DNA from: Rugalucina vietnamica
Lineage: Eukaryota > Mollusca > Bivalvia > Lucinida > Lucinidae
NCBI GenBank assembly: GCA_964017185.1
Contig: OZ024869.1
Span: 66,806,315 to 66,870,314, forward strand
Direction of reading: 5' to 3'
DNA length: 64,000 nt
A program made the position numbers and the translations under genes. The notes under the pieces are model-generated. The model had not been told where the DNA came from. It worked only from the letters and a program-made list of their open reading frames with translations, and made no database searches. How positions within the stretch are numbered: the first letter of the stretch is position 1; each line of letters begins with the position of its first letter. Of this stretch, positions 1 to 59,128 are shown piece after piece.

Positions 1-3000
1 CTGCTGTTGACACTACCATCCAAGCAGTAAAATTTGGAAAATACAACATTCCTGTTTTTCATTCTTGTGCAGCCATTTACTCAATGGCATTGTATACACT
101 CAAGCATTTGGTAAATAACATAAAGTTAATTCTTCATAACAAAACATTCATATCATAGATCATCATACCACAAATTGGGTCCGATCCAGACCATCCTGTG
201 CTGTTAGCCCCACACTGTCTTTCACTAGCACCACTGATCGTGTAGCCACTTTCACAGGAATACTTCACCGTAAACCCATCGTCTGACAGCACATACTGGC
301 CATAGTCTGGTTGTACAGGTGGTTCACATACTGTAAAATAAATAATTATTCTATGTTTACCCCACAAAACGGGAGAAACACTAATTTTATATCTCCAATA
401 TGGGCCACGTCATGAGAGAACTGGATTTTTGCCGAGGCGAAAACAAAGGCGCAGACCAGCTTCACGGTAACTGCAAAGCTGATCAGTGCCTTTGTTTTCA
501 CTACTCAGATAGTACAATTCCTCTTCTTCTTAAATCCAAATTTTATAGCTTCTAGCCTTTTTCTGTGACTGTACAGGCCGGTTTGTGTTTGACCTGGTCG
601 AAAATCCCAAAGACCGGTTTTCTCACGTCACAGCTCATTATTGCCAGCCCAATTAAAAACGTGTATCACAATGACAAAAGACATTGTCTTGAATTGAAAC
701 ATTTACAGGTTTAGGCAGAACAGCTACCAAAGCTGTACAAGTGTGGCTCTATCGAGACCATATCTGTCATTATCCTACTTTTTTGCTGCAACACAGTGAC
801 AGTTCTTTGTTGTTGTTATTTTTTAAATGTTGATCGTAATCTTTAATGTTAAACCATTCTTTCTTACCACATATAGGGCTAGAATCACTCCAAGACCCAT
901 TAGTCTGACAAATCAGAATATCAGTCCCAACAATTTTGTAGCCTGTATCACAACTAAAGTTTGCTGTAGAAGTCTGACCATCTGTGTCTATCTTGACATA
1001 ACCACTATCAGGGTCTGATAGATCAGGACACTCAACTGAAATAGACAATGTTTGATGTTAAAATGTTATTTTTAGAAATTTTTAGATCTCTATTTAGACT
1101 AATTGATTTTACAAACCTTCTCCGGCAGTTATTTTGAATACATTCAAGCCAGTGTAATTCAATTCTGGGTTGATTAAAAAAATCTTGCATTTGAAAAGAA
1201 TGGCCTATAAATCACTGTATACATCATCTACAAAAGAAATTGAGATATTCCATTATTAAATTAAAATGTCAAACAAAATTTACCACATGATGGTTCCGGT
1301 CAGTAGATTGGTTCCCATCAGCATAGACCCAAATTCACAGGAAGCTGTGGCTATTTATCTTAACCAGGCTACTATTTACCACTACTAAAAATTATAATTA
1401 CCACATGAAGGTTCCAGTTGATCCCATGTACCATCACTCTGACAGGTCAGTAGCCCTACTCCCAACAATGCTGACCCAACCTCACAGGCAAAGGTGGCTG
1501 TGGTCACTATACCATCGCTTGACAGGTTCAGGCTACCACCAGGTGGGGTAGACAGAGATTGGCAGGTTGCTGAAAGAGATGAAAAACGCTGAGCATATGT
1601 GTGAACATCTGTAATTTTGACTTTCATGTCCATGGTTCATTATTACATCCAAACTAATTTGTAGAAAAATATGCCTGCAAGAGAAAAAGATAAAGCATGT
1701 AAACATCAAAAGAAAGAAACAAAGAAAGATTATTCTATGTTAGTTTGATGGCTTTACAACCCAGTGAACACTCTTTAAGTCATGTTAGGAGGAAGCCACT
1801 GAGGTGTTAAAACCAGTTCTAAGTGGTGTAAATGTATCTTGATGAAGTACAGAACAAGGAGCCAGTGGATTTCAAACCTACAATGTCTGATCAGAAGTCC
1901 GACATTCTACCACTAGGCCACTGCCCTCTAGGCCACTGCCCTCTCAAGAAATAAAGTTTACTTACTACAATTAGGACTCACTCCAGGCCATCCAGAACCA
2001 TCATTCCCACACTGTTGTATACTGTCACCTATCAAGTTATACCCAACATCACAGGTATAGGTAAGAGTCTCTCCATCCTCAGATACTGACAGGTTACCAT
2101 TTACTGGTGATTCTGGTACTATACACACTACAAAAAAATCACAATGAACAGATTAGGATTATTGTCAAAAGTGCTTTAAAGATGGTAAAGGATTTACATA
2201 TCGAGCCTGATCAAACTAAACTATTATCTTCAAAGCTTTAATGGCCCTTACTGCACTTAACCTTTCCAGCTTTCTTCAAACATGTACACTACAACCTCAT
2301 TATAACACACCCCATTACAATGCGGTTTTCAATATAACACAGTCGTGTCATGGCTCCAAAATTGATTATTTTGCTATCTGTCTATTGTAAACAACCTCAT
2401 TATAACACGCTTCATTTATAACACAGTCTGTTTCTATGGACCCCAAAGATAGTGTTATAATGAGGTTGGACTGTACTGAGCCTTTGATAATTCTGTCAGT
2501 GTCATATTTGCTTTTTTGACAATACAACTGTTACATTTTTTCACAAAAGCACAATGGCCATTTTTAATATCGCATTCATTGCCCTCTGCAGATACATACA
2601 GCATTTGACATCTTGTCCCATCCACAGACCAGTGTCTTGACATGTTCTGACGGCGTCCCCAACCAGGTTATAACCCTCGGCACAGGTATAGACTGCTGTG
2701 GAAACTGACCCATTGGTAGATGTGTCAAGAGTTCCACTCGATGGTGTGACCAAGTTGGGGCATGGCACTGGAATAACAATTCATTCAGTTATTTTATTCT
2801 AGTGGGTACTTAGCAAGAAATTACAAATTATTTTGCTCATATCCCCATATAACCTTAATAAGTACTCATTAGAAACAACTTGCCAAGACTTATATAAGTA
2901 CCTACAATGTATGTTTTAGAGTGAAAAACACAGCTTTTAATTTCACAAATATCCAGCTCTATCAAAATTCTGCTATAAAATTCAAGTTTGAACAAAGCTG

Positions 3001-6000
3001 GATTGAAAAGAATATAAGAATCTTACATGAGTGTCAGGTATGGATAGACAAATCTGTCCCGAGTGTCACATTTTGGCATCACGAGGCTCGCCTCGTGATG
3101 CCAAACTGTGACCCGAGGGACAGATTTGTCTATCCATACCCGACACGCATGATGGATTCTTTTTCTTGCACGCCTTAATGCGACGAAGCTTGATTTTCAT
3201 ACTATTTACCCAGAAAAATGCTACAATTGCGCGTCCGCCATTTTGAATTTAAACGTTTTGACATTGTGACGTGTGCGCTTAGCGACAAAATTACGTGACG
3301 TCCTTTACAACCATTGTTAAAAAAGAACACTTGAACTCATCGTGCGACCGGGGTGAGATAACAAGGGTGAGATAATAACTTCTCATATGGGGTAAAACAG
3401 GGAATTTCTCTATCTGGTGTGCAAGAAATTAAGATTCTAAAAAATCTGCAATAAGATTTTACTTATCTATTTGATACCGCAAATCTCAAGCTTTCTTATG
3501 ACAGGGATCATATTGTTTTACTCACCACACCATGGGGCCACTGTATCCCAAGTACCATTAGCCAAACATATGCTGTGTTGGGTACCAGTTAATGTAAATC
3601 CAGCATCGCAGGTGTACTTGATCTCTGTTACTGTTCCGCTTGTTGAGTAGTTCAAATTGAGACCATTGGTCTCTGTTAGGGCTTCACATTCAACTGAAAC
3701 AGCCATTCACACAACTTACACTTAAATGAATTAAATGTTGAATTTGTTGATGATAAAAATGTGCCATTTCAGTATTCTATTCATCTCTCAATGAAAAACA
3801 AACATCAATTGTCAACCCTTATAATTCATATACATATTTTATATCAAAGACGGGACCTTGAAAACACAAAATTTCAATAGTATTTTGATGAAATGAAGTA
3901 AAAATACATGTATTTTGGTAACTGAAAATGAGCTAAAATGACATCAAAAATCGTGAGTGACAATCGTTGTGATGACATTACATTAGCAAAATTATGCCAC
4001 CTTGTGCCAAAATTGGCATTTTCCATTCCAATTCAATGACATTTTTTATGATTTTAATCTATTTAGATAGCTTCGCCTCAGTCTATAACCATTTCCTCAG
4101 GGTGAAAATTCTTACTATCACCCACTCAGTAATATAGTATTTATATACTGGCCCTAGTTTTTCTGAACCTCATAGTAGTGTAAGATTAATCTAAAATCGA
4201 AATTAATTTGATGCCTTAAAATTATTTACGAAGATTTTGTTTGTTTGTATTGAGGTTTAACGTCCCAGTCAACAATTTTACAGTCATGTCCAGTACTCTG
4301 GGGAGTTAATGTGTTTTGCTCAAGCCACTAGTGGGGATCATACCCAGGACCTCTTGATTGGGAGTCTGATGGTCTACCTCTCCCCCACCAAGTAAGTTAT
4401 AAATACCACAAGCTGGAGGTGTATCTGTCCAACCAGGCCCCTCAGGTTGGCATGTCTGGTCTGTAGTTCCACTCGCAGAGAATCCTACATCACAGCTGTA
4501 TGTAACAGACAGTCTGTCCTCTGAATACAGCAATGAACCATTCTGGGGAATCTCTGGTTCCTTACACACTGGAAAATATATGGGAATGGTCAAATTATGA
4601 AAACATTCCAAAGAAATACACAATTTTTTTGTATAGCAATAAAACTGAACCCCCATCCCCCGCCCCCCTCCCCCACTAAAAAATACACACTATTTAAAGC
4701 AATCTCATTTTCATTGTAACATTCATAACTCTCCTCTATATTACTAAAATATTAATGATTAATAACTCGTCATGGACAGCTAGCAGTGATATTGCCAAGA
4801 TCACCCTAAGACCCGAACCAGACTGCTCTATAAGAAGCATACTGAACTCAGTTCAAAAAGCAGTCTGATCATTTTTGTATTTCTACTATTCGCATAATCT
4901 CACCACAAGTGGGTTCAACCCCATCCCAAAGGCCAGAATCTTCACAAGTCAACAGGTAGCTGCCAAAAACCTCATATCCTGCTATACAGGTGTACTCTGC
5001 TACTGTCACTGTGCCATTGGTCTTTAGACTGACAGTTCCACTGATAGGGTCTGACAGTGACTGGCATTCAACTGTTTGAAAAAAAAAATCTTTTCTAAGT
5101 ATTTTGTCAATAAAAATGATCTTTAATCAATAAACATCTTTAAAAAAACACACTTTTTGCCAGAGTTTATCTAGCTTTTCTATATGAAAACTTCCAAGTC
5201 ACAAATATTATTTATTTGATTTGATGTTTTACATCTACTCTAAAAAGCTGAGATAGGTTATTACAATTAATCATCTTTATCACAGTGTTCCAGTGTAAGC
5301 CTGCCAAAAGCACTTTACCATTACTTAGTGCACATTCTTTTGCCATCAACTGACATCAACTCTTTTTTAAGATAAAGAATAGCTGCAGAAATAATTCAAA
5401 AATTTTCACAAGTTTGCATGTGCAGAAAGTGGGGGTTAATCATGGGTCGGTAATTTTGCAAATTTCATGTGTACACCCTGCCGACTAGATTATTCCCAGA
5501 CAAAGTAATTGTGAAGCTGATCTGCGCCTTTATTTTTGCATATGCAAAAAGTAAATTTTCTCTCGACTCAGGGTCAGCTTTCTTACCACATTCAGGTTTG
5601 ACTGTATCCCAAGTCCCATTCTCAAGACAAGTTGCCTTATCTCTACCATTGATTGTATACCCTCTGTCACAGGTGAACATTGACACAGTTATTGCACCAT
5701 CTGTTTCTAGACTGATATTGCCGTTCTTTACACTGCCAAGGGAGTCACATTTATCTGTGGAAAGAAGTAATGAATTAAGGGGTGCATGTCAAAAGCAACT
5801 TAACAACTCTGGATGCAAAACACACGTTTGACAGAAAAACTTTACCAAGTGAGTCATATTTTTGAGTCCTTTCATCCATGCACATCAGATGTTGCATCAC
5901 TGAATTATTTCTGCACTAAATAGATTTGTCTTCAAGTGGGATTCACCAACGTGTTCTCAAAATGCTACCCAATTGTTCCAAAAATATCCACCATAATTCC

Positions 6001-9000
6001 TTTCATCTGGCAAAATAAATGGCTTTTACAACCAAAGAGATAGGAATCAAAAATAAAGAAATTAATTACTATCATGACCATTAGATTATCAAGAAACCTC
6101 CACTTACTGCATGTGGGTGCTGTTCCATTCCACCAGGCTCCATTACTTTCACATCTTCTTACAGAGGTCCCACTTAAACTATAGCCATTGTTACAAGAGT
6201 AATTTACCAACAGTCCATCAGCTTCAACTGAACCATGGGTGGGTGGGGTAGGAGTGTCACAAACTGTTAATATTGAGAATAAACTTAGAATTACATTGTA
6301 TTATGTTATATTCTCTGCTACACATCTTAGGATAGAGACCCAAATTACAAATCTATAGCCATTTGAGCCGCCTCGTGGGAAAACCAACAATGTGGTTTCC
6401 GACCAGGTCCGACACAAACCGGCCTGTACACTCTCAGAAAAGAGCTAGAAGCTTGAAATTTCGGATTTAAGTAGAAGAGGAATTGTACTATCCGAGTAGC
6501 GAAAACAAAGGCGCTGATCAGCTTCGCGGTTACCGCGAAGCTGATCTGCGTCTTTGTTTTCGCCTATGCAGATTGTTGGTTTTCCCATGAGGCGGCTCAT
6601 TTGTCAAAAGTATCATTTGTAAACAGTTGATCCAACAGGTAGTTTCCTTTGATTTAACCCAGTATTTAGACCCCAACAAAACAGTACAGACTCATCAGAC
6701 TCCAAATTTTCCATCCAGCTTGCACCTTCTAGAGACATTCTGCGAACATGATTTTGACATGCAATATTTAAAATATATTTATATATAACAATTACTATGA
6801 TATTTACCACAGAGAGGTACAGTGCTATCCCAGGCACCAGTCGAGTCACATGTCAGCTGATCTGAGCCAACAATATGGTAGTTACTGACACAGCTGAAGG
6901 TTGCCATGGTTATGGAACCATCTGTTGTCAGAGTATAGGAACCACTGTCTGGTGATGCTAGTGTGGCACACTCAACTAAAATTGTCAAATAAATTATTAT
7001 GAAACTGTAAACCTTGCTTTGTATAATGACTTTATGTCCTGTTCAGCAAAGTTTCAGTAATATCAGGTAAGAACCACTCGTGACTGCTTTCTGGGTTCCT
7101 AACCAGTACTATAGGCAGCAAACATACCCTGCTCAAGGGCACAACTCTTGGTGGTTAGAACCCAGGACCCCTCAATTTGATTGACTGATTTTCTGTTTGT
7201 TATCCCTTTCATCTGGAATCGCACCCACAACCTCTTAATTACAGGTCAAGTGACTTAACCACTAGCCAAATTAAAATTGTAAAAATTATTATAGATATAT
7301 GTTCACAGTGAAATTCAAAGAAGGAAAATGGGAAATAAAGGGATATACGCAACCACATAGTGCGCCAGTATTACAATCTTCAAAGTTTCAATTTGATAAT
7401 AAAATGCTACATACCACAGGAAGGTGTGACAAAGTTCCAAGTCCCATCCCCTCTACATGTGACATTTGCCTGGCCTTGTAATGTGTAGCCAGGGGAACAG
7501 GTGAAGGTTGCTATGGTAGTTTTCCCATCTGTTGCCATGGAAACATCACCACTGACAGGAACTGACTGCGGGTCACAGGACGCTATGAAATAAAAAAGTG
7601 TAATAAGAGATAAAGTCAGATGACAACTATAGCAGCAAGCATGAATTGTTCAGGCATTTTCATTAGCTCTTTTGATGTTTTATTTGGAGCTACAACCATC
7701 AGAAATGTTTCAGTCAGACTTACTGCAAGTGGGAGCTCAATGCTTATAATTATAGTGACGGTGGTGTTTCTGCTTTATGTACCACTCAACAGCTATTAAT
7801 ATGAGTAGACCGGACTTTTGTTTAACCCATATTTGACGAATGGATTCTCCCATCATTATCAACTGGGTGAGTCCACTTTCATTTTAGGGGTGTTAGGTGT
7901 GATTTTTATTTTTTATCTCATTTTTTGATGAAAGTACTCTGTGCAAACAGAATAGCCCCAGATGGGACACCGCGTTCTGCAGTGTCACATCTGGAGCTAT
8001 GCTGTTTGCATGTGTCCCATAAAAAGGACGACAGGCTTATACGAGTCGAATATGAAAGGTTTAAGAAGCTGGACTCAAATATGCGATCACTTGTTTCTAG
8101 GTAAGTGGCTTGACTGAAATGCCACACAGGTCTCACACAACTACATTTTTGCATCGCGAATATATCATGTTCTACACTCTTACAGTGACCAGCATATAAA
8201 ACTGGCAATTGCTCTGTTAATAGCTAACCAAGACGCAAAAACGTGAGAAAAAATGGTCTTCAGGATTTCAAACCAGGTCCGATACAAACCGGCCTACATA
8301 CACAGAAGAAAGCTAGAATCTTGAAATTTTGGGATATTATTATGGGAGGAATGCTACAATCCGAGTAGAGAAAACAAAGGTGCTGATCAGCTGTGCAGTT
8401 ACTGCACAGCTGATCTGTGCCTTTGTTTTTGCATATGCAAAAAAAAAAAAAAAAAAAAAAAGGTTTTCTAATGATGCGGCTCAAACCACTTACTGCAAAC
8501 TGGCGGCACAATATCCCATGATCCATCACTGCGGCATGTCAACACTGAGCCGCCATCAATAGAATAGCCGCTGTCACAGTTATAGACGGCCTGGGTCTGT
8601 TGGCCATCTGTAGTCATGGTAACATAGCCGCCATTGATGTTGTCCAGAGCCGCACAGCTGTCTAAAAATAAAGAAAAATTTTCTAAGATGAGTCATTCTT
8701 GAAGAGCCCAGAAGGATGAATATATTTTGTTTGATGCCTTATGTTCGTGACAAACAACATCATGTTGGGACAGTGAGATACTTTTAAAACAACTCTTTTC
8801 CTCGAGATACCCAACTTGCCATGGATGAGAATTCAATATGATCCCATGGTAGATTCAAAAGTAAACAACTTCTGAAAACAACTTCTCAACATTTGTCCAA
8901 CTTGGAAACAGACAAAAACTTTGTAAGCATACTCACTGCAAATAGGGCTAGCCTCATCCCACCCTGAACCATCAGTCTGACAATTTCTGGTAGCAACACC

Positions 9001-12000
9001 CTCCAGAGAATAACCAGATTTACAGGTGTAGGTCACTGTCATACCATCTGTTGATACTACCAAGTGGCCGTTTACTGGTGTAAGTGGTGGGATGCATACT
9101 GAAAGAAATTTGAGATAATGAAACAGCTCATCAACACCTTTGATTTTGGAACAATCTGACTGCTTCTCAGGCCCAAATATTAAAGTTTGTCCATCTTCTT
9201 TGGTTGTTTAAACACATTTTTTGTCCACAAGGAGCTTAAGAGACAATTTAATCCTTTTGGGAGCTTTAAATGTGATTGGATTTGGTCCATTATGGCATTA
9301 ATGTCATTTCAAATTATTCATAAAAAGAAATGAAAAAACAACAGAAAAAAATCCAAAAATAAAATGTGTCTCTCACCGCAAACTGGATCTGTTGAGTCCC
9401 AAACACCATCTTCTGAGCACACCCTCTCTGCAGAGCCCAGTAGCTTGTAGTCTGACAAACAGGTGTAGTTTGCAACAGTTCTTGTACCCTCAGATGAGAT
9501 GGTCAAACTACCACTGGCAGGGGGTATCAAGCTTGGACAAGAAACTACAAAAATAATGGCACAAAATATAGTGAAACCATTGTCTAAGCACACTCTCTCG
9601 GATAAACCCACTAGCTTGTAACTGGACTGACAAGAATAGTTTGTTAGTTTTTGTACCAGAAGATGACGTACTCCAACTACCACTGGCTGAAGATGTTAAA
9701 CTGGTACAGGATACTACAAAATACATAAGAAAGGCTAACATAATCTTGTTGATATGGAAGTTAGAACACTGGAACAGAACAGGAGATTAAAAGTATTTCT
9801 TTAAGACATGAAAATGATTAAATGAGTTTGATACATCTAAGATATGCTAAGTTTATTCTTGAAATATTCATTAGAAGCAATCTTATATGTGCTCCATAGG
9901 GTAAGAAAGGAGATGCAAGAAGTACATGTATTATGCCTTTAATGATATCATTTTAAACCTAATGGTACACAAATATGCATCGACCATGCATACAAGCAAG
10001 AAGACAGCATACCACATGTAGGTGTTGTATCATTCCACAAACCAGAGACCAGACAAGCTAGGTACGGCGAGCCTTTCAAAGAGTAACCTGAGTCACAGTC
10101 AAACTTGGCGGTTGTTGTCGCACCATCTGTGTTGGTTGTCAAGGTACCATCTGCTGGGCTGTCCAGGGTAGGGCATGGGACTGGAGACAAAAGGGAGAAA
10201 AGTCAAATTAAATTTAATTAGGCATGCTATGACAAAACTAAATGAGCCGTGATGCCAGAAAAACAGACTTTTGCCTATGCAAAAACAAAGGCGCAGATCG
10301 GCTGTGCAGTAACTGCAAAGCTGATCAGTGCCTTTGTTTTCGCTACACAGTACGAGGGGGGAGCAAAAAGTTTGTGGACTTTGTTAATTAAATCAAAAGT
10401 ACTGATGCAATTCATCTAAAATTACTGTATGTTTGCAGTCAATTTAATATGAACTAATAGGGAAAGTTTCAGACAAATCACCTGATAAACGTTGTTGTTA
10501 TGACAATTTGTTCGATGGGTGTTAGCGCTACCCGGAGCACACCAAGACGTTTATGTCATTTGACACTGAAATTTCTGTATACATTGGCCGAGTCAAAAGC
10601 TCCTATAAATACATTATTTCTCATTCCACTTTAAGCAAAGTTTCACATCTTTATTCCCCAGCCTTGCAGGATTAGAGTTGGAGTCAAAGGCAAATCGATA
10701 GAATTTTTTAGTTTTTATAACAACTTCTGCAACAGATGTTAGGATTATCCGGGGCATGCCATGCTGTTACGTTGTTTGACATAGATTTTTTGCTTACTTG
10801 TGCTAACTTGTCGTTTTGTACCAGCTATTTCTTTGTGACTAACAATTGGTACATCATTGAACAATGTTGAATCATTAAGTTCTGATATGTCTTTAGCTGT
10901 TTATAACAAATTAAACGTTTCTGTAGGTTTTATTCGGAAGTCTCGCACAAATTTTATTGATGTGTGTGTTTCCCCCATTAATCAGTAACATCATTTTTAC
11001 TGAATTTTTACTTAGACTTGTCTTCCAAAAAGTGTCACTGTAGCGTTGTCTTTTGAATGTGAGGACAGAAATTTCACATTTCAAGTCGAATTATATCATT
11101 ATCAATATTTCCATAATTTAAGGAGATTTCGATAGGGCTTTTTCAAAATATTTTTATATTTATAAACATGTAAACAGAAATTTTACGACGTGCTCCGGGG
11201 TAGCAAACCCCACATGTTTGTCAATGTAATTTAACCAATCATCTATTATAAAAGTTATTAAGAAAGTCCTCAAACTTTTTGCTCGCCCCTCGTACAATTC
11301 CTCTTCTTTTAAATCCAAAATTTCAAGCTTCTAGCCATCTTCTGTAGGTGCAAAGACTGGTTTGTGTCAGACATGGTCAGAAACCCCGAAGACCGGTTTT
11401 TTCATGCAGTGGCTCAAATGCTTATCAATATTTCTCCATCAGCAAGCCAAACATAACAAACTGGAAAGCTATCAAAGTCATCCAGTAAAAACATTTAAAA
11501 CTTTCTTGGCAAAATTATTTTATCCTGATTGTTACCATATACATGTACTGCGTTAAAGCCCCTGTCACACACTTATGAGTTGGACCTAAGAGTTAAGCTC
11601 TGCCCACTTTTTTGGTAGACTCGAAGCAACTCGTACTCGCCAAATGTCCGCGGTTCTCGTACACAAGTCTTCCCAACTCGTAGCCTGTCATGGAATGGCT
11701 ACGAGAAATTTCAAGGATTTAAAATTCTTGTAGAAACTCGCCATCTAAAAATGGGTGGAGCATAGCTTGTACTGATCTAGTAGCTTATCATACAGAACTT
11801 GTAGTAATGGCGTGGGATGTCGTGCATTCTCGGCGTCATGTCAAATATGGCGAAGTACCTACAAGTTGCTACGATATTCAAGGCCTCTTCTTGCGAGTTA
11901 CCACATCTAGCGAGTTTTCAATGACATGCCTACGAGTATCTGCGAGATTCCATGACTTATATCGTAGTGATATCGTGTAGAACTAGTAGGACATTATAAC

Positions 12001-12774
12001 TCCTGGCAACTCGTGCGACAAGTGGCAAGTAATGATTTGCGCTAACCCGTAGCATGTCGTAGCTTCAACTCGTGAGTGTGTGGCAGCTTCTAAATTTTTC
12101 CAACTTAACTTGTGGCATCTCGCGCGACAAGCGGCAACTTATAACTTGTGCCAAGTCGTAGCATGTCGTAGCTTCAACTCGTGAGTGTGTGACAGGCCCT
12201 TAACATATACCAATTAACAAAGGATTCAGTGTGTTGGTATGGCTCCTTTGGAATAGGAGTATAGCTTAATTCATAATAGGAGCACGCCATCAAACTTTCT
12301 TACACATTAGTCCATTACACTGGCATTGCTACATCAAACAAAGAGCGGCTAACATCAAGTGTTTCTAAATCAGGACTTCAAAGTCTATGTAAACCTTTGT
12401 AGTAAAAAGTGAACTAAATTAACCTCAAGACAGCAGCATCTGACTGAGCATAGCCAATGATTAGCCAATGCTCAAGCTTGTAGATAAACCTAAGTCCCGC
12501 CCATATAATTTGTGTGACAGCTGACCAGTTTAATTGAAATCAATATTGGATAAAATGTCATTTAGAGCAATTGTAAATTTTATGATGTTTGAGAGTGGTT
12601 TGTTTTGGCTGCTGAAAAGATGCTTGACCTGTCAGTTGTAATCTAATATGTCATAATTTAAATAGGGTTGATGTATTTTCACACAATTGACCAAAGATTA
12701 CCCCTACAGGGCAACAGAAAGTATATCTATTTGCATTTCAAATTAATAAACAATTATTGTATCTAAGATCCCAT

Positions 12775-12817
<43 letters not shown>

Positions 12818-13193: not shown

Positions 13194-13244
<51 letters not shown>

Positions 13245-31200: not shown

Positions 31201-34200
31201 TAACCGCGAAGCTGATCAGCGCCTTTGTTTTCGCTATATGGATAGTACAATTCCTCTACTTTCTAAATCCAAAATTTCCAGCCTCTAGCCATCTTCTTTG
31301 ACTGTGCAGGCCGATTTGTGTCAGATCTAGTCGGAAACCCCGAAGACCGGTTTTCTTGCGTCGCGGCTCATATCATACTTCATACTATTAGTATCATGAA
31401 TATTGCTGCTGTACATTCTTTGCTTTTATTATTAAAAAACATGTATTATAAGAGCTGAGCTGAGAGAAAACCGGTCTTCGGGGTTTCCGACCAGGTCCGA
31501 CACGAACCGAATGTCATTTACCATATATCATTTAGCAGTTTGCACTTAAGATTTAGAATTTACCTATTCTATGTCATTTATGCATTTGTCATTTAGCAAA
31601 GTTTTGAGTTTACCTGAAAGATAAAAATACGGGTCCTCTTAATTTTCATATACAAACTACATACCAAATCTCAAGATCCTAGCACTAACGGTTCTGGACC
31701 GAGTGCAAAGGGTTACTCACGCACTTCACAGACTCACAGACTGACTGCACTGCACTGCACTGGACAGACAGACCCAAACCAATATGCCCCCTCAACTTCT
31801 TCCAAAGTTGGGGGCATAAAAATGAAGCTGCTAAAAACGTATGGCGCACATGTTTAGGACCAACATACTAAATCTGTGTAAAAAGAAAACTGCAATATGA
31901 CCTTAACAGTTGAAAAGGCTAGTTTTATACTTCACTTTCATGTTTTGCTTGGCTTGCATTGCTGACTTGTGTTTATACAAAAATGACCATTGCTAAGGTG
32001 CACATATTTTTGTACTAAAATGAAATTAATAAGAAAGACTGAAAACCATTCCAAAGGATCTATCACAGGTCAGTGTTGCCAAGTCCAAAGTCCCATCACT
32101 CCTACAGTTACTGGTACCCAACCCATTGAGTCCCAGCTGTTGTAATATGTGTAGGTTGTAATCAAGTTTTTGTTTATTCTTTTTTTTAACTTTTTTCATG
32201 ACAAAGAGTGAAAATCATCACATACCACAGGTTGGTGTGGCAGAGTCCCAAGTGCCGTCACTTCTACAGTTACTGGTACCCGACCCACTGAGTCCGTAGC
32301 CGTCAGAACAAGTGTAGGTTGTAGTCGTCACTTCGCCATCCGTTTTCTGAGTGTAGGAACCGGCCCCTGGGGTCATGGGGAGGTCACACAACACTGGAAA
32401 ATGGTTGGATACAAATTACTTTTTAAATACATGAGTCTGTGCCTGACAAAACCAACAATTGGGTTCGGACCAGGTCCAACACAAACCGGGCTGTACAGTC
32501 ATAGAAGAAGGCTAGAAGCTTATTGGAACATGGGCGCTAATTAGAACAAATACAGTATTTAGGTTAGAAACTATAGCCTTTTTCAATTCAAAGACATACA
32601 CTTTAGACTATTTTACCCAAAGACGTACTAACATCTTTTACTTACCACAAGATGGCGGGGAAAGATCCCACGATCCATCACTTCGACACGTCAGTAGTGA
32701 GACGCCATTCATCGTGTAACCCACTTGGCAGGAAAAGTTTCCCTGAGTTATGGTTCCTGTAGACACCAACTGTACACTGCCCCCTGCCACATTGGGTAAT
32801 GTCTGACATGATTCTACAAAAACACATATTGTTAGGATGTAATGATAACAGAACATTCATGAAATGTAAGATTGTGCAACCCACATGCAACCCACGTGGC
32901 AGGAAAAGTTTCCCTGAGTTATGGTTCCTGTAGACACCAACTGTACACTGCCCCCTGTCACATTGGGTAATGTCTGACATGATTCTAAAAACATAAATCT
33001 GTTATTTTACAAGAAAATATTAGGGATTCCAAACAGGTCAGTCACAAATTAAGTAGACAATTTCTCTAATGACTCTTGATTATGTCATAATCAAGAAGGA
33101 TTATTGTATGACCAAACCAAAAATGTGCATTTAATTGCTTGCAGTCCACAGCCAATGCCAAAATCAAGTGACCCTAAAGGGTTTAAAGACATTTCTTGGT
33201 CAATCTCTATGAGTATGATATGAGCCGCGACGCGAGAAAACCGGTATTCGGGGTTTTCGACAAGGTCTGACACAAACTGACCTGTACAGTCACAAAAGCG
33301 GGCTAGAAGCTTGAAATTTCGGATATAAGAAGAAGAGGAAATGTACTATCCGTGTAGCGAAAACAAAGGCGCTGATCAGCTTCGCGGTTACCGCGAAGCT
33401 GATCTGCGCCTTTGTTTTCGCATAGGCAAAAATCCGGTTTTCTCACGATGCGGCTCATATCACAGTGTTCATTGTTTATGCTGACATTATGGCATTTGCC
33501 AAAAATCATACAATCAACAATAATAATGATATCATACCACATGACGGCTGGCTACCAGTCCATCCTGTTCCATCACTACTACAAACTCTCCCACTGGACC
33601 CAGAGATTGTATAGCCAGAGTCACAGTGATAGTTCAGGGATAACTTGGTATCTGATAGGATAACTTGGCCATTTGGTGGCGCCACTGGTACATCACAGTC
33701 TGAAAGCATCAAGAAAACATCTATGTGTAATGAATACCCCCTTATACCCCACTTTTATATAGTAAAACTGGGGTATACAATTGTTCTTATTTTGAGCCAA
33801 AACATCAAATAAGGTTGAGGAGGTGCGAACGTGTGTACCCACAATCTATAATTTGAGTACATTTTCAATGTTTAAATCTGAAAAAAATCTCTGTATATAG
33901 CATTGGTGTGTTTTTGTAATTAAGAAATAAGTTTACTTTACGGTGAATTATCGTGATTAACACGGGATGTTGGAGGGCAGATTGCGATGTATTAATTAAC
34001 GACAGCGCAGCTGGAGTGAATTAAATATCGCATCTGCCCGACAACATCACGCGTTAATCAAAGATAATTCACCGTAAAGTAAAATTATTTCAATTCTAAC
34101 ACGACTGATAAATATTTGCTTACATTTTAGAATGTTTTCCAGTGGACTCATTGTCGGCGGACATAATTGTTTATGTGCGATGTCACAAAAACGCCACCTT

Positions 34201-37200
34201 ACGCGCGTAATTTTGTTTACTGTGAATTATTGTTAATTTGCACACGGTGACGTTTCCATTAAGTCCAATGGGAGAAACGATAATTGTTTTCCAGCCTTTG
34301 ATACTGTAAATTCAGGAACTTTGTGACTTCTATTTCGCAAATTTTCTGTTTCTGAGTAATTTCTTGAATTTGTAAGACTTAGTGTTCCTATGCACTTTAC
34401 GGTTTATATTGATTCATTTTATCAACAAACTTGAAGTCATGAGGCAACAAATTTGCAAATCATCACAAAAAAATAAGTTCTTGCAAACAATTTCTAACTT
34501 AGTATTTTCACAATTCATGGGCCAAAAGATCAATCATGAAAACTTATGTTGTTGTTATTGTTATATATGAGCTGTGTTATGAAAAAACGGATTTTTGCCT
34601 ATGCAAAAACAAAGGCACAGATCAGCTGTGCAGTAACTGCACAATTTCTCCTCTACCTACAACCAAAATTTCAAGCTTCTAGTCTCCTTCTGTGACTGCA
34701 CAGACCGGTTTGTGTTGGACCTGGTCGGAAACCCGATTATCTCGCGTCGCAGATCCTATCATTTATGGCATTTTATTGCTGCCAAGCAACTCTATGTGCT
34801 TCAAATTAGCTTTAATTATAGCTTACAACAATTTGGAGCTGTAGCATCCCAAGAACCATCTTCCAAGCAGAACGAACTGGTCGCCCCATCAACATAGTAT
34901 CCTGGAGAACACTCATAGGTAGCCTGGCTCACGGTGCCATTGGTTGTTACATTTACAGAGCCACTGCTAGGATCTGTAGCACTGTCACATGGAACTGAAA
35001 TCATTGACATTACAGGTCAACCTCATTATAACACTAACTTTGGGTTCCATAGGAACTGATTGTGTTATAAGTGAAACCTTGTTCTAATGAAGTTACTTAC
35101 AACTAGAAAATGTGTTTATGAAACACTATGCCCCCAACTGGTACCTCACTTTTAAGATGTGAAAATGTCCAATAAATGACCAAGTTCAAATTGCAAAAAA
35201 AAGTGACAAAAATTTATCTGAGGAGTATATCCAAACCACATGCATATCTTCAAAGCATGGTCACAATGTCTGTAAAGTTTCAAAAGTATCGGTATTAAAC
35301 TGTAGGAGGAGTTGCGCACAAAGGGTACCCTTTATCCATTCACTCAAATGCCCGAAAAAAAATGACTAAGCTCAAATTGTGAAAATAATGACAAAAAATA
35401 ATCCGAGAATTATATCCAAACCACATGCATATCTTCAGACCATGCCCATAACACATGTAAAGTTTTAAATCAATTGGCTTGAAACTGTAGGAGTTGTGCA
35501 TACAAGGTATCCACTGTCCATTCACTTTCATTGTCAAAATGCCCGAAAAAATGGCTAAGTTCAAAATTGAACAAAAAATTAATCTGAGGATTATATCCAA
35601 ATCAAATGCATATCTTCAAAGCATGGTCACACCATCTGTAAAGATTCAAGAAAATCGATATTAAACTGTAGGAGGAGTCACACACACAAGGTACCCACTA
35701 TCTATATTCACTTTAACAAGAACTAGAAAATGTGTTTATGAAACACTATGCCCCCAACTGGTACCTCACTTTCAAGATGTGAAAATGTCTGAAAAATGAC
35801 TATGTTCAAATTGCAAAAAAAGTGACAAAAATTAATCTGAGGAGATATCCCAACCACATGCATATCTTCAAAGCATGGTCACAATGTCTGTAAAGTTTCA
35901 AAAGTATCGGTATTAAACTGTAGGAGTTGCACACACAAGGTACCCTCTATCCATTCACTAAAATGCAAAAAATGTAATTGGACTCACTGGACTCACTCCA
36001 GGGACAGACCCAAACCAATATGCCCCTTCAACTTGTTCCAAGTTGGGGGCATAAGAAAAATATGGGTCCTCTTAATTTTCATATACAAACTACATACCAA
36101 ATTTCAAGATCCTAGCTCTAACGGCTAAGCGTTACTCAAGCACTGCAGGGCAGTCACAGCAGTGCACTGCACTGGACAGGACAGATGGACAGAGCCAAAC
36201 CAATATGCCCCTTCAACTTCTTCGAAGTTGGGGGCATAACAAAAAGGGTGATAAGACTATAATCCAATTTTGTAAACATGTCATGTTTTTGTACTTTTAA
36301 ATATCGACTAATCCTCGAAAACGGGCGTGCAGGTGAGCTGACGAAATTAGACGCATAGTACCGGAGATTTTCGGGAAGTCCGTTATAAGTAAGTAAAGAC
36401 TTTACGTAAAGAGGGTATCTACATTTAGCATATATTCATGTACACATAAAAATGAGAATATGTGCAATAGCTAATCTTCCATGAGGCCCTCGTGAGGTGA
36501 ACATGCGTATTAGATCATGTGCGTTTTCTACATTGATTCCCAGTTAAACACTAACCGTGTGGCTACGAGTCCGTCGTGCATTACAACATATTGTACAGGT
36601 ATGAGGATGGGGGCTGAGGTTCGAAACCAATATGCATTTATTTATTTTTTATCTTCTGAATTTTATTTGTATTCTTTCACAAAAGTATAACTTCGATTTT
36701 AATATATAATTTATACATAACTAGTAAGCAATAGTTAATTGAAATATTCAGTTTCTGTATTAACAAGGATGATTTGTGCATATATGTATATATGTACGTG
36801 GCACTTGCATAATGGACCAGTCATTCGTATCTCCGGTATAGCGGGGGCAAAGTGGGACTGAAGTGCCGGGATTAAACATTAGACGAAACCCGGCAGTACC
36901 AGAGATTTGCCTTAGTATTGTCAGCTCATGACAGGGGTCAACAGGCGTAGAATCTGGAGAGTTTTACATAAAATATTATAAAATAAATACAGGCAATAGT
37001 GTACTAATAAGAGGAAAAAAAATCTAAAAAAGAAAAATAAAAAAAAAAAAAAAATGTCAAAAATGGGATTCGAACGCCTACCAAAATATAATCGTTACCT
37101 AAACGCTTAGAGATGCATGGTCGTACTATCACGACTATGACTGCAGCGTTATCTTATTTTGGATTCTAAATATATTTAGCATAAAAGGGAGAACTCTTAA

Positions 37201-40200: not shown

Positions 40201-43200
40201 CATGGTCACAATATCTGTTATGTTTCAAAAGTATCTGTATTAAACTGTAGGAGGAGTTGCCCACACAAGGTACCTTCTAACCATTCCCTAAAATGCGCGA
40301 AAAAATGACTAAACCCTACTTGTAGGACAGTTCTACATGTTACCACTGTAATTTTGGAAATTTTTGCCGGTCATTTATCTGACAGAATAAAATATTTTGT
40401 CAGTCAGAATGAATATTTGCTGATTTTGACCGACAGACCAGCACTTTTCGCAAAGACTGCAAGGTACCTACTATCTATTCACTTTATCAAGAATTAATAA
40501 GGGACATAACTCTCATAGAATAGGCCCCTTGCCCCTTGAATTTACCTGAAAGAAAAATTATGGGTCCTCTAAATTTTCATATACAAACTACATACCAAAT
40601 TTCAAGATCCTAGCTCTAACGGTTCCTGACCGAGTGCTAAGCACTACTCACACACTGCACTGCACTGCACTGGACAGACGGACAGAGCCAAACCAATATG
40701 CCCCCTCAACTTCTTCGAAGTTGGGGGCATAAAAATGTAAGACCAACAAGCCATATGACAAATTAAATCCTCTTACCACAAGTTGGCATATCACTATCCC
40801 ATGTACCATCGATGTGGCACACTGACATTATAGGGCCACTCAGGGTGTAGCCACTGTCACAAGTGAAGGAAGCCACCGTCTGAGACCCTATTAGAGACAT
40901 TGTAACATTTCCAGCTGGTAATTCTGGAAGGTCTGGGCATTTTACTGAAAAATAACATTGATGTAGGCATTATACAAACACACAGAAACCCAGAAAATGC
41001 AAATTTAAATATGAATCCAGCCTTAACCACTGGAGCAACGTAGGCCGACTTTGTCTGGGACTATGGTAAGGACTTTACTTGCTATCATTTACCGTTTGTC
41101 TGGTACCTTAACGACTTTGGTACTAAGCTACCATTTATCATTTGCCTCCTACTGTGGTAAAGCTTTTCTATAAAGGAGATAGAAAAGGCTATTACCAAAG
41201 GAACCCAGCCTATCGGTAAGGTAGCTACCAAGGTTACTTTGGTAAACTCTTCTGTTATAGAGGTTTCTAATGATGGCTGTGATTGGTCAATATCATTTGT
41301 CATTGAGGAAATCAATTTGCTGGAACAGCTACCATAGTTACACCATAGTTAGAACAGGTCAGTTCTGGCCGAAGTCAGTCACAGTTTCAAGCTGTTCTAT
41401 CCACTAAACAAACCCTGACACTACTTCAGTTAAGTGTGAAGCAAGAATTGCATGTGTTCATAGTTATTTAAGCATATGGCATTACAGAAAAGAAGAAAAC
41501 AACAAATTTAAATCTGAATCCAATCTTACCACATGTTGGGGCAGTGCCGTTCCAGGCTGTTCCATCCATTAGACAAACCCTGGCCATGTCGCCATTGAGT
41601 GTGAAGCCAGGATTGCATGTGTATGTAGCAGTGCGACCATCAGTTGATAGTGTGATATTACCATTGGAAGGTGGGGTCAGTGACTCACACACTGAAACAA
41701 AAGTACCACATAAGCCGCGTCGCGAGAAAACCAGTCTTCGGGGTTTCCGACCAAGTGTAACACAAACCAGCATGTACAGTCTCAGAAGAAAGTTTGACTC
41801 TTTAAATTTTGGGTAGAGGTAGAGGAGGAATTGTACTATCCGAGCGGCGAAAACAAAGGCGCTGATCAGCTGTGCAGTTACTGCACAGCTGATCTGCGTC
41901 TTTTTCACACGGGCAAAAATCTGCTTTTTTTCATGATGCGGCTCACATAATGTTGTTGTTTTTTTTTCACTTTGTCATTAAGTTATAGGTAAACAGAGAA
42001 GACAAGGACCAGACTCACCTTTAATATCTGATAAAAACTCTTTGCATTACACTGTAAAAATATACCTTTCAGTCTCTAAAACCAACCAAAAAACCTAGGT
42101 ATACATCTTAAGTCAAATCTTTGTAATTTACCATACTCAGGTTCTGCTGTTTACCCAAACTCCAGAGGATGTACACAACAACTGCTCCAGGCAATGTGAA
42201 CTGGTACTCAGTAGAGCAGGCAAATGTTGTAGTGCTCTTGAAAGCAACTGTTAACTAACTATACATTAAATAAATTATGAAAAAAATACTTACTACATTC
42301 CGGTTCTATCACGTCCCATGTTCCATTAGTTTGACACACCAACGGTCCAGTGTATGTCAACTCGTACCCTTGTGTACAGGCAAATGTTCCAATGCTGGTG
42401 AAACCGTCACTGCTTACACTGTAGGTACCTTGTTGGGGTCTGCTCAGGGATGCTCAGGGATGGACACTGAACTGAAATGATGTAATAAGAATGAAATGAA
42501 AAGATGTAAAAACCAAGGGGTCAGATCAACCCAAAGGCGGATTTAGAGGGAGTTCAGGGGTTCGAGTTAAACCCAGTCTGAGTTCATATTATTTAAATTT
42601 CATGAGCAAAATAGGGTGAAATTAAATAAACAAACCCCCATTACTAGATTTGAACCCCCTCTCCAGAAATCTTGGATCCGCCCTGCAACCTCATAGTAGT
42701 TTTGAGTGTGTCCCAGGACCCTTCTTAATTGCATAGCATCACTTGCTGCACTCAGGAAACAGTGGACAGAATAATCAGACTTTTAATAGGAATGCCACAT
42801 AGTTTGGGCTACAGAGCCAATTGCAGCACATCAAAATATCCAATCTAAGCAAATTCTTGTAGAAATAAATCTTTTTAACTTTAGATTGTCATTCTATTGC
42901 AGCAAACATATTCATTACAATAATTCTGAACCAAATACTTGACAAAGAAATAAGCCACTGCATAAGAAAAACAACAAAATGCTTGGGCGAAAACAAAGGC
43001 GTAGATCAGCTTCGCAGTAAGCTGATCAGCGCCTTTGTTTTCGCTACAAGGATAGTACAATCCCTCTTCTACTTAAATCCTAAATTTGAAGCTTGTAGCC
43101 TGCTTCTGCGACTGTACAGGCTGGTTTTTGTTAGACCTGGTCGGAAACCCAAATTGTTGGTTTTCTCATGCAGTGGCTCATATACCACAAGTGGGTTCTG

Positions 43201-46200
43201 TAGAATCCCAGGAACCGCCATTCAAACAATATCTTTCTTTCACTCCCACAAGCGTGTAGCCAATGTCACATCTATATGAGGCTTTAGAGGTCGGGCCGTC
43301 TACTGTAATGTTGACTGAGCCACCGGCAGGATCTGCTAGAGCGTCACATATATCTGTAATATAATGTATTGGATCATAATTATGGCCACATTTCTTTCTC
43401 ATCCACCAGTTTTTAGCCAACATCACATCAGTAAGAGGCTTTAGAGGTCGAGCCATCTACTGTAATGTTGACTGAGCCACCAGCAGGATCTGCTAGCGTG
43501 TCACATTTATCTGTAATATAATGTATTGGATCATAATTATGGCCACATTTCTTTCTCATCCACCAGTGTATAGCCGATGTCACATCTATATGAGGCTTTA
43601 GAGGTCGAGCCATCTACTGTAATGTTGACTGAGCCACCAGCAGAATCTACTAGTGTGTCACATATATCTGTAATATAATGTATTGGATCATAATTATGGC
43701 CACATTTCTTTCTCATCCACCAGTTTTTAGCCAACATCACATCAGTAAGAGGCTTTAGAGGTCGGGCCGTCTACTGTAATGTTGACTGAGCCACCGGCAG
43801 GATCTGCTAGAGCGTCACATATATCTGTAATATAATGTATTGGATCATAATTATGGCCACATTTCTTTCTCATCCACCAGTTTTTAGCCAACATCACATC
43901 AGTAAGAGGCTTTAGAGGTCGAGCCATCTACTGTAATGTTGACTGAGCCACCAGCAGGATCTGCTAGCGTGTCACATATATCTGTAATATAATGTATTGG
44001 ATCATAATTATGGCCACATTTCTTTCTCATCCACCAGTGTATAGCCGATGTCACATCTATATGAGGCTTTAGAGGTCCGGCCATCTACTGTAATGTTGAC
44101 TGAGCCACCAGCAGAATCTACTAGTGTGTCACATATATCTGTAATATAATATATGAGAACTAAGTTCCAGCTATTAATCTGTCACAAAACCACATCTTAT
44201 ATCGCCAATGTCACATTTATAGGAGGCTTTAGAGGTCCAGCCATCTACTGTAATGTTAACTAAGCCGCAAATGGAATCTGCTCGAGTGTTACATATATTT
44301 GTGATATAATATCAGCCTTACCACCAGCAAGCCTGTTTTTGGAACTCACAATTGGGTCTGAAACAAAACTACCTGTACAGTCATGACAGAAGGCTTGAAG
44401 CTAGAAATTTTGGATTCAAAAAGTAGGCAGACTGGGCCCAGTTGTTCAAAACTTTGTTAGCTTAACGCTGTCATTAAGCCCTCAATTTGTTACCTATATA
44501 TCGACTTCAATTTTAGCAAATACACTGTTATTATTTGTTGGAAAAATGTGAGAATCCTATGCATTGCATTATCAACAAAAAATATCAGAGTATGTGCAAT
44601 ATTCATGTTTGAAATTTTAACAAATCGTTAACTAACAACATCGTTAATTTTGAACAATTGGGCCCAGATCTATCTGTGGTGCACTTACTACATAGAGGAT
44701 CTTACACGAGTTGTCATTTCATATGAAATTTATTAAACGAGCTTTTGGCGAGTTTAATAAATTTCATATGAAATGACCACGAGTGTAAGATTCGTTTTAT
44801 CATATGACTTTTAAAATAGGATTTTATCGCCTTCGAAGTTGACATATTTTCAATGAAAATTTATATTGTTGTTACGGACGTCATCAATGACGTTACGTAT
44901 TCCCGCAAAAGTGTTAATACACGTGTGGTCATAAGATTTTTATGACATGACGTTATCCACTGGAAAACAGCGACGTCATATGATAAAGTCTGTTCTCAGA
45001 ATTAAGATTAAGCTGATTCGGATGTGGCACTTCATAATTTTATAATTATTATTCATTATTATTGTTATTAATATTATTCTTTTAACCAGGGTGTAAGTTT
45101 ACATGTATCCCAATATGTCAAATTTTAAAGCTATGATTAAATATCATGAAAATATCTTAGATTTTTCATAATTTATATTTTTTACCAACATAAAACTTCA
45201 ACTGCCGTACCACAAGTTGGGTCAGTTCCATTCCAAGCTTTGCCATCATCTTGACAGTACCGCTCCCTATTCCCAGTCAGTGTGTAACCAGCTAGGCAAT
45301 TATAGGTGGCAACCACGCCATCATCCGAGACTGTTACTTCACCGTTAGTGGGTGGGGTAGGCTCGTTACACTCTGAAAATTTTAAATGAATCATGTATCA
45401 TGAAATCTTCAAAAGTCTAAGCTGGAAGTTACGCAATTTTTCTTAAAAGAAATACTTCTCTTTTTTATACAAGTGTTTACAGCTTATTTTGTCTTATGGT
45501 TTAGCATTTAAGTTGACCAACAATTTTCCAGTCATGTTGGGACGGAGGGACTGATTCCTTGGTATTTACCACTACTGTGGGGAGTTTGTGTCTTGCTGAG
45601 TCGAGTTCCAACCCAGGGTCCCTCAAGTCTGAATCCGATTATCACTATGCCATCACACTCTCTACACTTATAAAGCATCTTGGCAACTTTAAACATTGTA
45701 TAGGCTGATCTGTGTCTAATCTAGTTGGTAACAACAATAGGGAGAAACCAGTGCAACCTCGGTCCAAATCTGCACTGAACCACTATCGTGACTACTAAAT
45801 GCTTATTACATGCTGTTAAAATGAGCTCTCACATCAGGAAAACATTTCCGTGAAATAAATACCCCCTCATACCCCACTTTTATATAGTAAAACTGGGGTA
45901 TGCAGGAGTATGCCTATTTTTCTTATTTTTGCTCCAAAACATATTGTGGGTACTCGTTAGTGGGTACTCACCGAGGCGGTTCTAACGTGTACCCACAATC
46001 TATGTTTTAAGCAAAAATAAGAAAAATATCAAAATTTTTCTACCGAAATAACTTTTCTCTGTATATTGCATGGGCAAGTTTTCGTAATGAAGTGTTATCA
46101 TGGAGACGTGTCCAAATCTCAGAACTAGATTGATACATATACAGAACCACTATCATGGCTGCTGGATACTTACTACAGGCTGGCATATCATATTCCCATG

Positions 46201-49200
46201 TGTTATCACTGAGGCAGGTCCTAATCTCTGCGCCATATAGAGAATAGTCCTCGGCGCACTGGTAGCGAGCAGTTGTAACGGCCCCATCAGTCTGGACAGA
46301 TACTGAACCACCATCAGGGCTTACAGGTACAGGACATGTTGCTACACAAAAATTGCTTTTTCTGAATTGACATTTTGAAAGGCATGCAATATTCTGCAAG
46401 TTTTAAAGGGTGTTAATGACAGGTTTTGCAAAAATCTGAAAGTTTGTTATATTTTTCTTATATACATTTATTTCTTCTCAAAACATTGATCATTGAAACA
46501 AAATGAAATTGCCATGCTCAAACCATTCTAATCAATGAGCAATTAGCTGCACATTTTGGTCAAATCATTCTTCTATTCTTTTCCCACCCAGCAGGCACAT
46601 GACGTTTAAATGACGTCAGATTGACGTCGATGCGACGCCATCCCTCTTCTACTTAAATACAAAATTTCAGCTTCTAGCCATCTTCTGTGACTCTAGCCAT
46701 CTTCTGTGACCTGGTTTGTGTCGGAGCTGGTCGGAACCCAAATTGTTGGTTTTCTCACGCACAGGCTCAATTGATACATGTACTTTTTACTAAGATGAAT
46801 GAATACTTACGACATGTAGCTGTAAAATAAAAAGAGAAATTGGTATCAAAAATAACAAATATTGAATCATTTTGCTACAATATAATGTTCCACCAACTGA
46901 TCTAAACAGCTGTTTTAGTATTAGTTAAGAGATTTCTATCTCAGCATTTCATTAATTTTTGTGTTGTTCTTGTTTCTCAAGTTTGTGTCGCCTAGAAGGA
47001 GCTCTTTTCATTCACTAAGTATCAAATTGTCTGTACAAAATAATTTTATAACATTACGAAAACATGCCCATGCAATATACAGAGATTTTAAAAGTTGTAA
47101 AAAAAGAAAATTTTCATGAAAATTTTTGATATTCTTATTTTTGCTCAAAACATAGATAGTGGGTACACGTTAGAACCGCCACGCCGAGGCGGTTCTAACG
47201 AGTACCCACAATCTATGTTTTGGAGCAAAAATAAGAAAAATAGGTATACCCCTGCATATCCCAGTTTTGCTATATAAAAGTGGGGTTCAAGGGGGTATAC
47301 ATTACACAGACATGTTTTCCTGATGGATAAACATAGTAAAATGAAACAGTGTCTTCATCATCAAAATAGTAAACCTGATTGACCACAAACAAGCACCAAA
47401 ATCTACCCAAAAGTAAATATATTTCAAAAATCTGTCCCGTTAGCGGAATGGTGAGCGTGTCCGCTTCAGGAGCGTGATGTCGTGGGTTCAATCCCAAGCC
47501 AGGTCACACCAAAGACGTGAAAAGTGGTACCAGTGGTTCCCTTGCTTGGGACTCAGCATTATAAGGCAAGCACTGGGACAAGCCTGTCGTGCTGGTGACA
47601 AAATGTTCATCCTGACTGAATAAATGCAAACAGCCCATGGGAGTGTAACAAAATGACTGAATCTATGACTGAACAGGCCATTATAGGAAGGTGGTATATC
47701 AAACAATTGAGCCGCCTCATGGGAAAACCAACAATCTGCATAGGCGAAAACAAAGACGCAGATCAGCTTCGCGGTAACCGCGAAGCTGATCAGCGAATGT
47801 TTTCGCTACACGGATAGTACAGTTCCTCTACTTTCAAAACCCAAAATTTCCAGCCTTTAACTATCTTCTGTGACTGTACAGCCCGGTTTGTGTCTGACCT
47901 GGTCCGAAACCACGTTTGGTTTTCCCACGAGGCAGCTCAAATCTTACTGTATGCATTAGGTATGGTCATAGTAGCTCCAACAGGCTGCCCAGTATTAGCC
48001 ACAGGAACACTATCAGGTGTCTGACCCTGTCGACAATACTTTGAAGCTACTGAAGCTCTGCTTCCATCTGCTGAGATAGCCTGTAATAATGATTACTAGA
48101 AATTGGCTGCAAGCAAGGCTTTCAGTATACCCCCCGCATAATTATCTGAAGCTGGCCAATAACTTCCTAAGTCAAACATGCAGAAAATTTGTCAAAGATA
48201 TCTTTTCAGCATTATAATCCTTCATTTACATCCTCAGTATGCCAGTCACATTTATAAGATATTAAAAGAATATATTGAAAGCTTGAGGTTGATTTCACTG
48301 TACGCACTATGATCTTTGTTTATCATGAGAAATGGTAAAACCAGAGGACCAATGGTCCTGTAAACGCTCACCTGAGATCTGCTTCATATACCAATAAACA
48401 TATTTGAATATTATGGTACAGGGGCAGATGAAGCCCTTGGGCCATTTTCTTTTTTCAGAATAATCAATATTCTGTCCATTTGCAAATTTCCTGCTGATTT
48501 TCTCCTTCAAATAACATTTTAAAAGCAGATGAGCCCCTGGGGTCCATTTTTTTGTTCAGAATCATTAAATTTCAGTCCTACTGCCCATTTCCTGCAAGAC
48601 ATTCACTTACAATGACATTTTAAAAGTTTTCCCCATTCAAATGCATTGACGACCTATGTTGACCTTGCCATAAAATAGGTCAAGGTCACCACAGGGTCAT
48701 GTTTATATATACATTGTAGTACTTGAGTCATCCATACTTCATGCAAAGTTTCGTTGAAATCGGTTCACCGGTTCTGGAGAAGAAGATATTTTAAGGGTTT
48801 TTACCATATATGGGCATGGCGGCCATCTTGGTCATGTGATCTGGATTATTTATATACAAATTGGTTCCCACTTCCTATAGATGCTTCATATAAAATTTGG
48901 CTTTGATTGGCCAAGCGGTTTCAGAGAAAAAAATCTTTGAAAAGTGTGTATGGACGACAGACCGGCCAAGGTCAAGAGATGACCTTGACCTAAATTAATC
49001 ATATACCTTCATATATCCATTAGTTGTTTGCATCTACCACTTTTCAGCTCTCAGGCTGCAATAGTTTTCAAAAAATAGCTAATTTCCACTTTTCCCATTA
49101 TAAGTCTATGGAAACTTAAAGTTACCATAGCAACTAGAGTTCTTATCCAACTGGAATAAAAAACACAAATTATGTAGAGGCTACTGTCAGGAACATGTAT

Positions 49201-59124: not shown

Positions 59125-59128
<4 letters not shown>

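Follow-up and report, generated by a model that had tools for sequence, protein, structure and literature searches.

A stretch of 64,000 nucleotides from the 1.09-Gb genome of the lucinid bivalve Rugalucina vietnamica (contig OZ024869.1, C1:66806315-66870314; hereafter the window) carries 37 full modules of the CCP, or Sushi, type, all of them on the minus strand, and these belong to a longer array. The modules were found with a hidden Markov model (HMM) trained on the window's own CCP peptides, and the flanks of the window were examined as well, first 140 kb on the left and 60 kb on the right, then another 40 kb on the left. At least 99 full modules (98 with a stricter cut) lie on one strand from -133235 to 46336, in window coordinates; modules 38-99 extend 133 kb leftward beyond the window. 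The HMM search of the flanks gave no significant CCP matches from 46337 to 124000 or from -180000 to -133236. The locus is probably one predicted gene, shaped by nested block copying and encoding an extracellular-type protein of at least 99 CCP modules.

The three modules with a Pfam Sushi score (PF00084; cut-off 20.7) are module 21 at 35.5 bits, module 5 at 36.2 and module 99 at 23.1. In the 99-row alignment, the cysteines of columns 1, 28, 44 and 59 are conserved in 98, 99, 99 and 99 rows and the tryptophan of column 51 in 97; the lone missing first cysteine is that of module 4, which is frame-shifted. From first to last cysteine the modules span 51-56 residues. An AlphaFold model of module 18, made from aligned window modules (36 of the 37, without module 4), is a small all-beta domain built of strands only, with a pLDDT of 93.3. 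A profile built from 10 of the window's 12 alpha modules was compared with the PDB; CR1, the best match, CR2 and factor H came first (best 60 of 92 sequences, E <= 0.001). Modules and measured linkers together amount to 5,476 residues, and an N-glycosylation motif occurs in 81 of the 99 modules. Each of the 37 window exons has AG before it and GT after it and is of phase 1-1; over the whole array, splice sites and phase fit in 98 of 99 exons.

The exons fall into classes B (beta), A (alpha) and a (alpha'), the order of which, read 5' to 3', is BABBABBABBBaBBABBABBABBABBBaBBABBABBABBABBBABBBABBABBBABBBaBBABBBABBBABBaBBBABBBABBaBBBABBBABBABBBA. Class B exons are 168 nt long in 63 of 70 cases, with modules 4, 49, 57, 60, 74, 78 and 91 deviating (165-178 nt), while the 24 class A exons measure 162 nt and the class a exons (modules 12, 28, 59, 73 and 84) 156 nt. 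For the window, these sizes, their order and the shared motifs are just as a first-pass annotation, made from the letters of the window, had described them. Underlying the string is a base grammar, beta1-(beta-m)-beta2-alpha, with three or four modules to a group, in which alpha always follows beta2. The beta just before an alpha (beta2) is distinct from the one just after it (beta1): serine stands at column 10 in 26/29 beta2, 0/28 beta1, 1/13 beta-m and 1/29 alpha modules (10/12 beta2 and 0/11 beta1 in the window only), and threonine or serine at column 33 in 1/29 beta2, 27/28 beta1, 11/13 beta-m and 27/29 alpha modules, the beta2 mark at this column being tyrosine or histidine. Inside single units, modules of the same type are more alike than those of unlike types (difference 0.73 Z, p 0.0003). 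The linkers obey the same grammar. (Linker counts omit modules 1 and 4.) The linker preceding alpha is one residue long in 29 of 29 cases, valine in 14 of these, and that preceding beta is two residues long in 67 of the 68 measured, with three residues before module 75. Despite the clear split between beta1 and beta2, there is no residue diagonal at a module spacing, or lag, of 3 (z 0.34). The three-module ancestor proposed earlier is therefore visible in the type marks and not in general likeness.

Above this grammar lies a register of 16 modules. Within the window lag 16 (z 5.94, familywise p 0.0005) stands alone as a significant spacing of modules, and over modules 9-45, which the register covers, z is 7.09 (p 0.0002). 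The diagonal is an unbroken run of 21 pairs, modules 9-29 matching 25-45, and the unit consists of five groups (4+3+3+3+3); drift is seen at positions 13/29, 28/44 and 23/39. Of the 21 lag-16 pairs inside the window, 8 have at least one member whose best partner is the other, compared with 2/30 at lag 3, 1/23 at lag 6, 0/22 at lag 10, 0/22 at lag 13, 0/8 at lag 15, 0/7 at lag 17 and 0/16 at lag 19; over modules 9-29 the lag-16 count is 12/21. When every exon was searched by blastn, the only distant same-strand pairs alike in DNA (E < 1e-8) were 9/25 and 14/30, both at lag 16.

Could this likeness be a mere by-product of the alternation of alpha and beta classes? The alternation is real and brings many pairs into match, but shuffles that keep the classes fail to produce the lag-16 signal, as do those in which the four subtypes are held fixed (z 4.74), and other class-matching lags, such as 3, 10 and 13, remain at background. 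Class alternation has hardly any chance of being the explanation. Growth from neighbour to neighbour was likewise rejected (lag 1, z -1.41), and the window holds no CR1-like seven-module unit (lag 7, z -1.08).

The first-pass annotation had claimed this 16-module spacing and derived several predictions from it. Two 168-nt exons followed by one of 162 nt were to lie left of the window, and there they are; the first of them and the exon at 10013 are each other's best match. The three were also to resemble the exons at 10013, 9377 and 8937, which holds for module 38 with 22 and, as a pairing, for 40 with 24; 39 matches 23 weakly only. Of the dot-plot diagonals expected at 3 and 16 modules, only the latter appears. 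The duplication of a 16-module unit stands for modules 9-29 against 25-45. Modules 1-8 had been taken for the tail of a first unit, a claim that finds no residue support against modules 17-24 (p 0.64) or 33-40 (p 0.29).

In a poorly resolved maximum-likelihood tree of the 99 modules (54 columns), 12 of the 96 inner branches are starred, the bootstrap not being settled. The starred groups include the lag-16 pairs 14/30, 17/33, 22/38 and 26/42, a clade of 9, 25, 41 and 86, and 16/32/85, which contains one lag-16 pair. The expectation that modules 16 apart should be sisters is borne out for those four pairs, with most branches open and the neighbours 70/71/72 grouped together. When the first five modules of every unit are concatenated, the resulting tree groups the three copies in the 16-register (87/93, not starred); long branches meet elsewhere in that tree.

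The copies are not recent. Mean residue identity is 49% for the lag-16 pairs of modules 9-29, 39% for other pairs of the same subtype and 35% for neighbours. At 4-fold sites of shared residues, 87/242 are identical at lag 16 (36%), against 31% in other pairs (background from sets of 21 pairs, standard deviation 3.3%; expectation from base composition, 28%). Since synonymous sites are near saturation, the block duplications are old, and they were not re-homogenised. The order of modules has persisted through this time. Recent gene conversion or a duplication in the assembly might also make modules 16 apart alike, and small-scale tandem duplication is indeed active here, with partial copies beside 14 of the 99 exons. 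However, 4-fold identity is close to background, mean protein identity is merely 0.49, and the introns show no lag-16 excess (24/1358 matches, where other lags reach 75); neither blastn nor the 4-fold and intron comparison found near-identical exons or introns 16 apart. A recent origin of the likeness is very improbable.

The partial copies themselves are exon duplications that failed and left additional splice sites behind. In the window they lie at 43391-44310, 41384-41457, 32886-33004, 32034-32163, 30605-30881, 17175-17263 and 9576-9721, and outside it, for example, at -112681 to -111210 and -110826 to -109453; beside module 89 a 129-nt unit is present in as many as 11 copies. Enrichment of tandem repeats at exons is not clear: 6 of 54 rows (5 distinct arrays) overlap an exon, and the modules make up 8.5% of the DNA.

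From about module 41 a second register, of 11 modules, begins (z 3.71, p 0.003 for lag 11 in modules 41-99). Its unit consists of three groups (4+4+3) and is repeated across modules 41-99 five times in full and a sixth time in part, and from module 41 onward 48 of 48 pairs 11 apart are of the same subtype. The 11-register is statistically weaker than the 16-register, and a tree of the five 11-units did not resolve their branching.

Is this one gene or several? The largest gaps between modules are 11 kb (45/46), 22 kb (60/61) and 16 kb (75/76). The last two, like the missing gene ends and the frame-shifted exon 4, would suit a set of neighbouring CCP genes or a decaying cluster, in which the registers would reflect gene duplication. 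On the other hand, the class pattern of the 11-register runs unbroken across all three gaps, an argument for a single array from which no module is lost, and 98 of the 99 exons keep frame and splice sites. The long frame between modules 75 and 76 is that of a BEL/Pao retroelement and was rejected as a gene start (internal start and end exons were not searched systematically). We consider several genes improbable. The retroelement lies on the gene's strand, from -89914 to -83588, with an unbroken frame of about 2,109 residues.

A number of observations weigh against a single gene with nested registers. The gene is predicted from genomic sequence. Searches beside the array found neither its first nor its last exon: on the minus strand, neither 46340-56241 nor the roughly 6.8 kb downstream of module 99 contains another Pfam domain that exceeds its cut-off (there is one chance-level match, E 0.11), and by simple rules no phase-fitting signal-peptide exon was found in 46337-59400, nor a clear terminal or membrane exon. 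Exon 4 (42294-42471) is frame-shifted in the assembly by a 10-bp tandem duplication near its start; this could reflect a null allele or a mistake in the assembly, or the exon, which is symmetric, could be skipped. As to the registers, lag 32, expected of three 16-module units, is weak (z 1.94, familywise p 0.72), and the segment limits 9, 41 and 46 were picked after the data were seen. Lag 22 with subtypes fixed has a familywise p of 0.11 (modules 41-99) or 0.36 (46-99); lag 11 is not significant over all 99 modules (p 0.69), and no lag reaches significance when modules 76-99 are taken by themselves. Kinship between the 16-unit and the 11-unit, in either direction of descent, is unsupported (p 0.10). 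In the tree of 99 modules, 52 of the 96 inner branches are open, one starred group joins the neighbours 70, 71 and 72 with 82, and others unite modules at other distances (63/96, 87/97, 13/74, 10/60/69 and 4/35/66).

About 530 bases upstream of module 1, at 46870 on the minus strand, there is a short frame that begins like a signal peptide and has a GTAAGT donor; its phase does not directly match that of module 1. Farther out, two reverse-transcriptase elements, probably Penelope-like, face each other: one on the minus strand (59419-61155), with RVT_1 above and GIY-YIG just below the cut-off, and one on the plus strand (61084-63168), with an RVT_1 match below the cut-off at 61840-63165.

CCP exons of the window, with the modules to which they are matched
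Module	Exon type	Length (nt)	Position	Strand	Remarks
1	beta2 position	168	46174..46341	-	5'-most CCP found
2	alpha	162	45211..45372	-	
3	beta1	168	43186..43353	-	partial tandem copies upstream
4	beta2	178	42294..42471	-	10-bp tandem duplication, frame shifted in assembly
5	alpha	162	41530..41691	-	
6	beta1	168	40777..40944	-	
7	beta2	168	34827..34994	-	
8	alpha	162	33538..33699	-	
9	beta1	168	32646..32813	-	starts lag-16 diagonal; pairs with 25
10	beta-m	168	32226..32393	-	pairs with 26
11	beta2	168	30951..31118	-	pairs with 27; DYHI/NYHI
12	alpha'	156	29730..29885	-	pairs with 28
13	beta1	168	28660..28827	-	weak pair with 29
14	beta2	168	25761..25928	-	mutual best match of 30, also alike in DNA
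15	alpha	162	25288..25449	-	mutual best match of 31
16	beta1	168	22176..22343	-	mutual best match of 32
17	beta2	168	19865..20032	-	mutual best match and starred sister of 33
18	alpha	162	19112..19273	-	pairs with 34
19	beta1	168	18257..18424	-	pairs with 35
20	beta2	168	17593..17760	-	pairs with 36
21	alpha	162	16942..17103	-	pairs with 37
22	beta1	168	10013..10180	-	mutual best match and starred sister of 38 (left of window)
23	beta2	168	9377..9544	-	weak pair with 39
24	alpha	162	8937..9098	-	pairs with 40
25	beta1	168	8494..8661	-	pairs with 9 and 41
26	beta-m	168	7415..7582	-	mutual best match and starred sister of 42
27	beta2	168	6808..6975	-	pairs with 11 and 43
28	alpha'	156	6108..6263	-	pairs with 12, weakly with 44
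29	beta1	168	5587..5754	-	pairs with 45
30	beta2	168	4904..5071	-	pairs with 14
31	alpha	162	4407..4568	-	pairs with 15
32	beta1	168	3526..3693	-	pairs with 16
33	beta2	168	2600..2767	-	pairs with 17
34	alpha	162	1966..2127	-	pairs with 18
35	beta1	168	1402..1569	-	pairs with 19
36	beta2	168	868..1035	-	pairs with 20
37	alpha	162	169..330	-	pairs with 21; array goes on leftward with modules 38-99

How might such an array have arisen? Since the exons are of phase 1-1, the reading frame survives when a block of them is copied or skipped, and the 16- and 11-module units presumably came about when runs of exons were duplicated in tandem, with breakpoints in the introns. In the simplest history of the 16-register, modules 14-29 would have been duplicated once, late, to give 30-45, on top of a more ancient resemblance of 9-13 to 25-29 and 41-45. 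The product would be a long, rather stiff extracellular rod, in which the beta2-alpha junctions may form tight two-module joints and equivalent faces would recur every 16 or 11 modules, as the register implies. A CCP module is about 4 nm long, which would give a rod length near 350-400 nm. That the locus is one gene, with a three-level order of modules and a history of block duplication, is quite probable, and a rod would be its most likely way of working.

What the super-repeats would be for is a different matter. By analogy with CR1, ligand sites of one kind may be repeated along the chain; alternatively, as is thought for titin, the super-repeats may be matched to the spacing of a partner. 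In its strongest form, the latter idea would make the protein a titin-like extracellular CCP ruler of about 5,500 residues, with the 16- and 11-registers setting two spacings of putative binding sites, and with both order and number of modules fixed by selection although the locus keeps making failed tandem duplications. Such a ruler is conceivable and, on balance, unlikely. It is also possible, at somewhat less than an even chance, that the super-repeat is a frozen accident, the block duplication being real and functionally meaningless. The symmetry of the exons by itself permits block copying, three positions of the 16-register have drifted, and common descent together with ordinary purifying selection could yield everything seen. 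A frozen accident competes with the working model only; the architecture is the same in either case.

Two proteins with super-repeats are known already, through the long homologous repeats (LHRs) of CR1 and the super-repeats of titin. CR1 is a protein of 30 short consensus repeats (SCRs) with four LHRs derived from a seven-SCR unit (PMC6883348). There, as here, a unit of several CCP modules was duplicated in tandem, and homologous modules come back at a constant spacing of more than one module. The array differs from CR1 in its units (16 and 11 modules, not 7), in having two registers and at least 99 modules, in its linkers of 1-2 residues, and in its copies, which are old and near synonymous saturation. 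The A-band super-repeats of titin have the form -AC-ABC in the D-zone and -AC-ABC-ABC in the C-zone (PMC10665226), and the likeness lies in typed modules arranged in short tandems with an extra module in some, in two super-repeat lengths within one chain and in very short linkers at fixed places (PMC10665226). It is a likeness of architecture and not of family, since the modules are CCP here and FnIII/Ig in titin, and the protein here is of extracellular type. Factor H also consists of tandem CCP modules, 51-62 residues in size, a range into which the 51-56 residues found here (Cys to Cys) fall; it has 20 modules and linkers of 3-8 residues, compared with 1-2 (once 3) in the present array, and the available part of its source mentions no super-repeat (PMC2806952). 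With no seven-module unit and with linkers below the factor H range, RCA membership is unsupported. Apart from CR1, no CCP gene with a comparable super-repeat was among the matches listed from open-licence PMC text. Set against these known cases, the array is new in its two registers, module types, 99 modules and very short linkers.

The same genome contains other CCP arrays. An intron-less one at C5:45776172-45780923, with an unbroken frame of 1731 residues, accounts for 10 of the listed Sushi matches. A second, on the minus strand of C10 (17317085-17354933, in part), consists of at least 17 near-identical modules of 55 residues, with a mean identity of 0.85 (0.89 without the outermost), and is a recent expansion of a single module, unlike the old C1 array.

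A 99-module CCP gene with a grammar of module types, near-fixed linkers and two super-repeat lengths would constitute an independent case of the titin-type building principle, here in a protein of extracellular type. It makes testable the question of whether super-repeats in long multi-domain proteins come from a selected order of modules or merely from phase-1 exons that are easily copied in blocks, and the C10 array, freshly expanded in the same genome, provides a built-in contrasting control.

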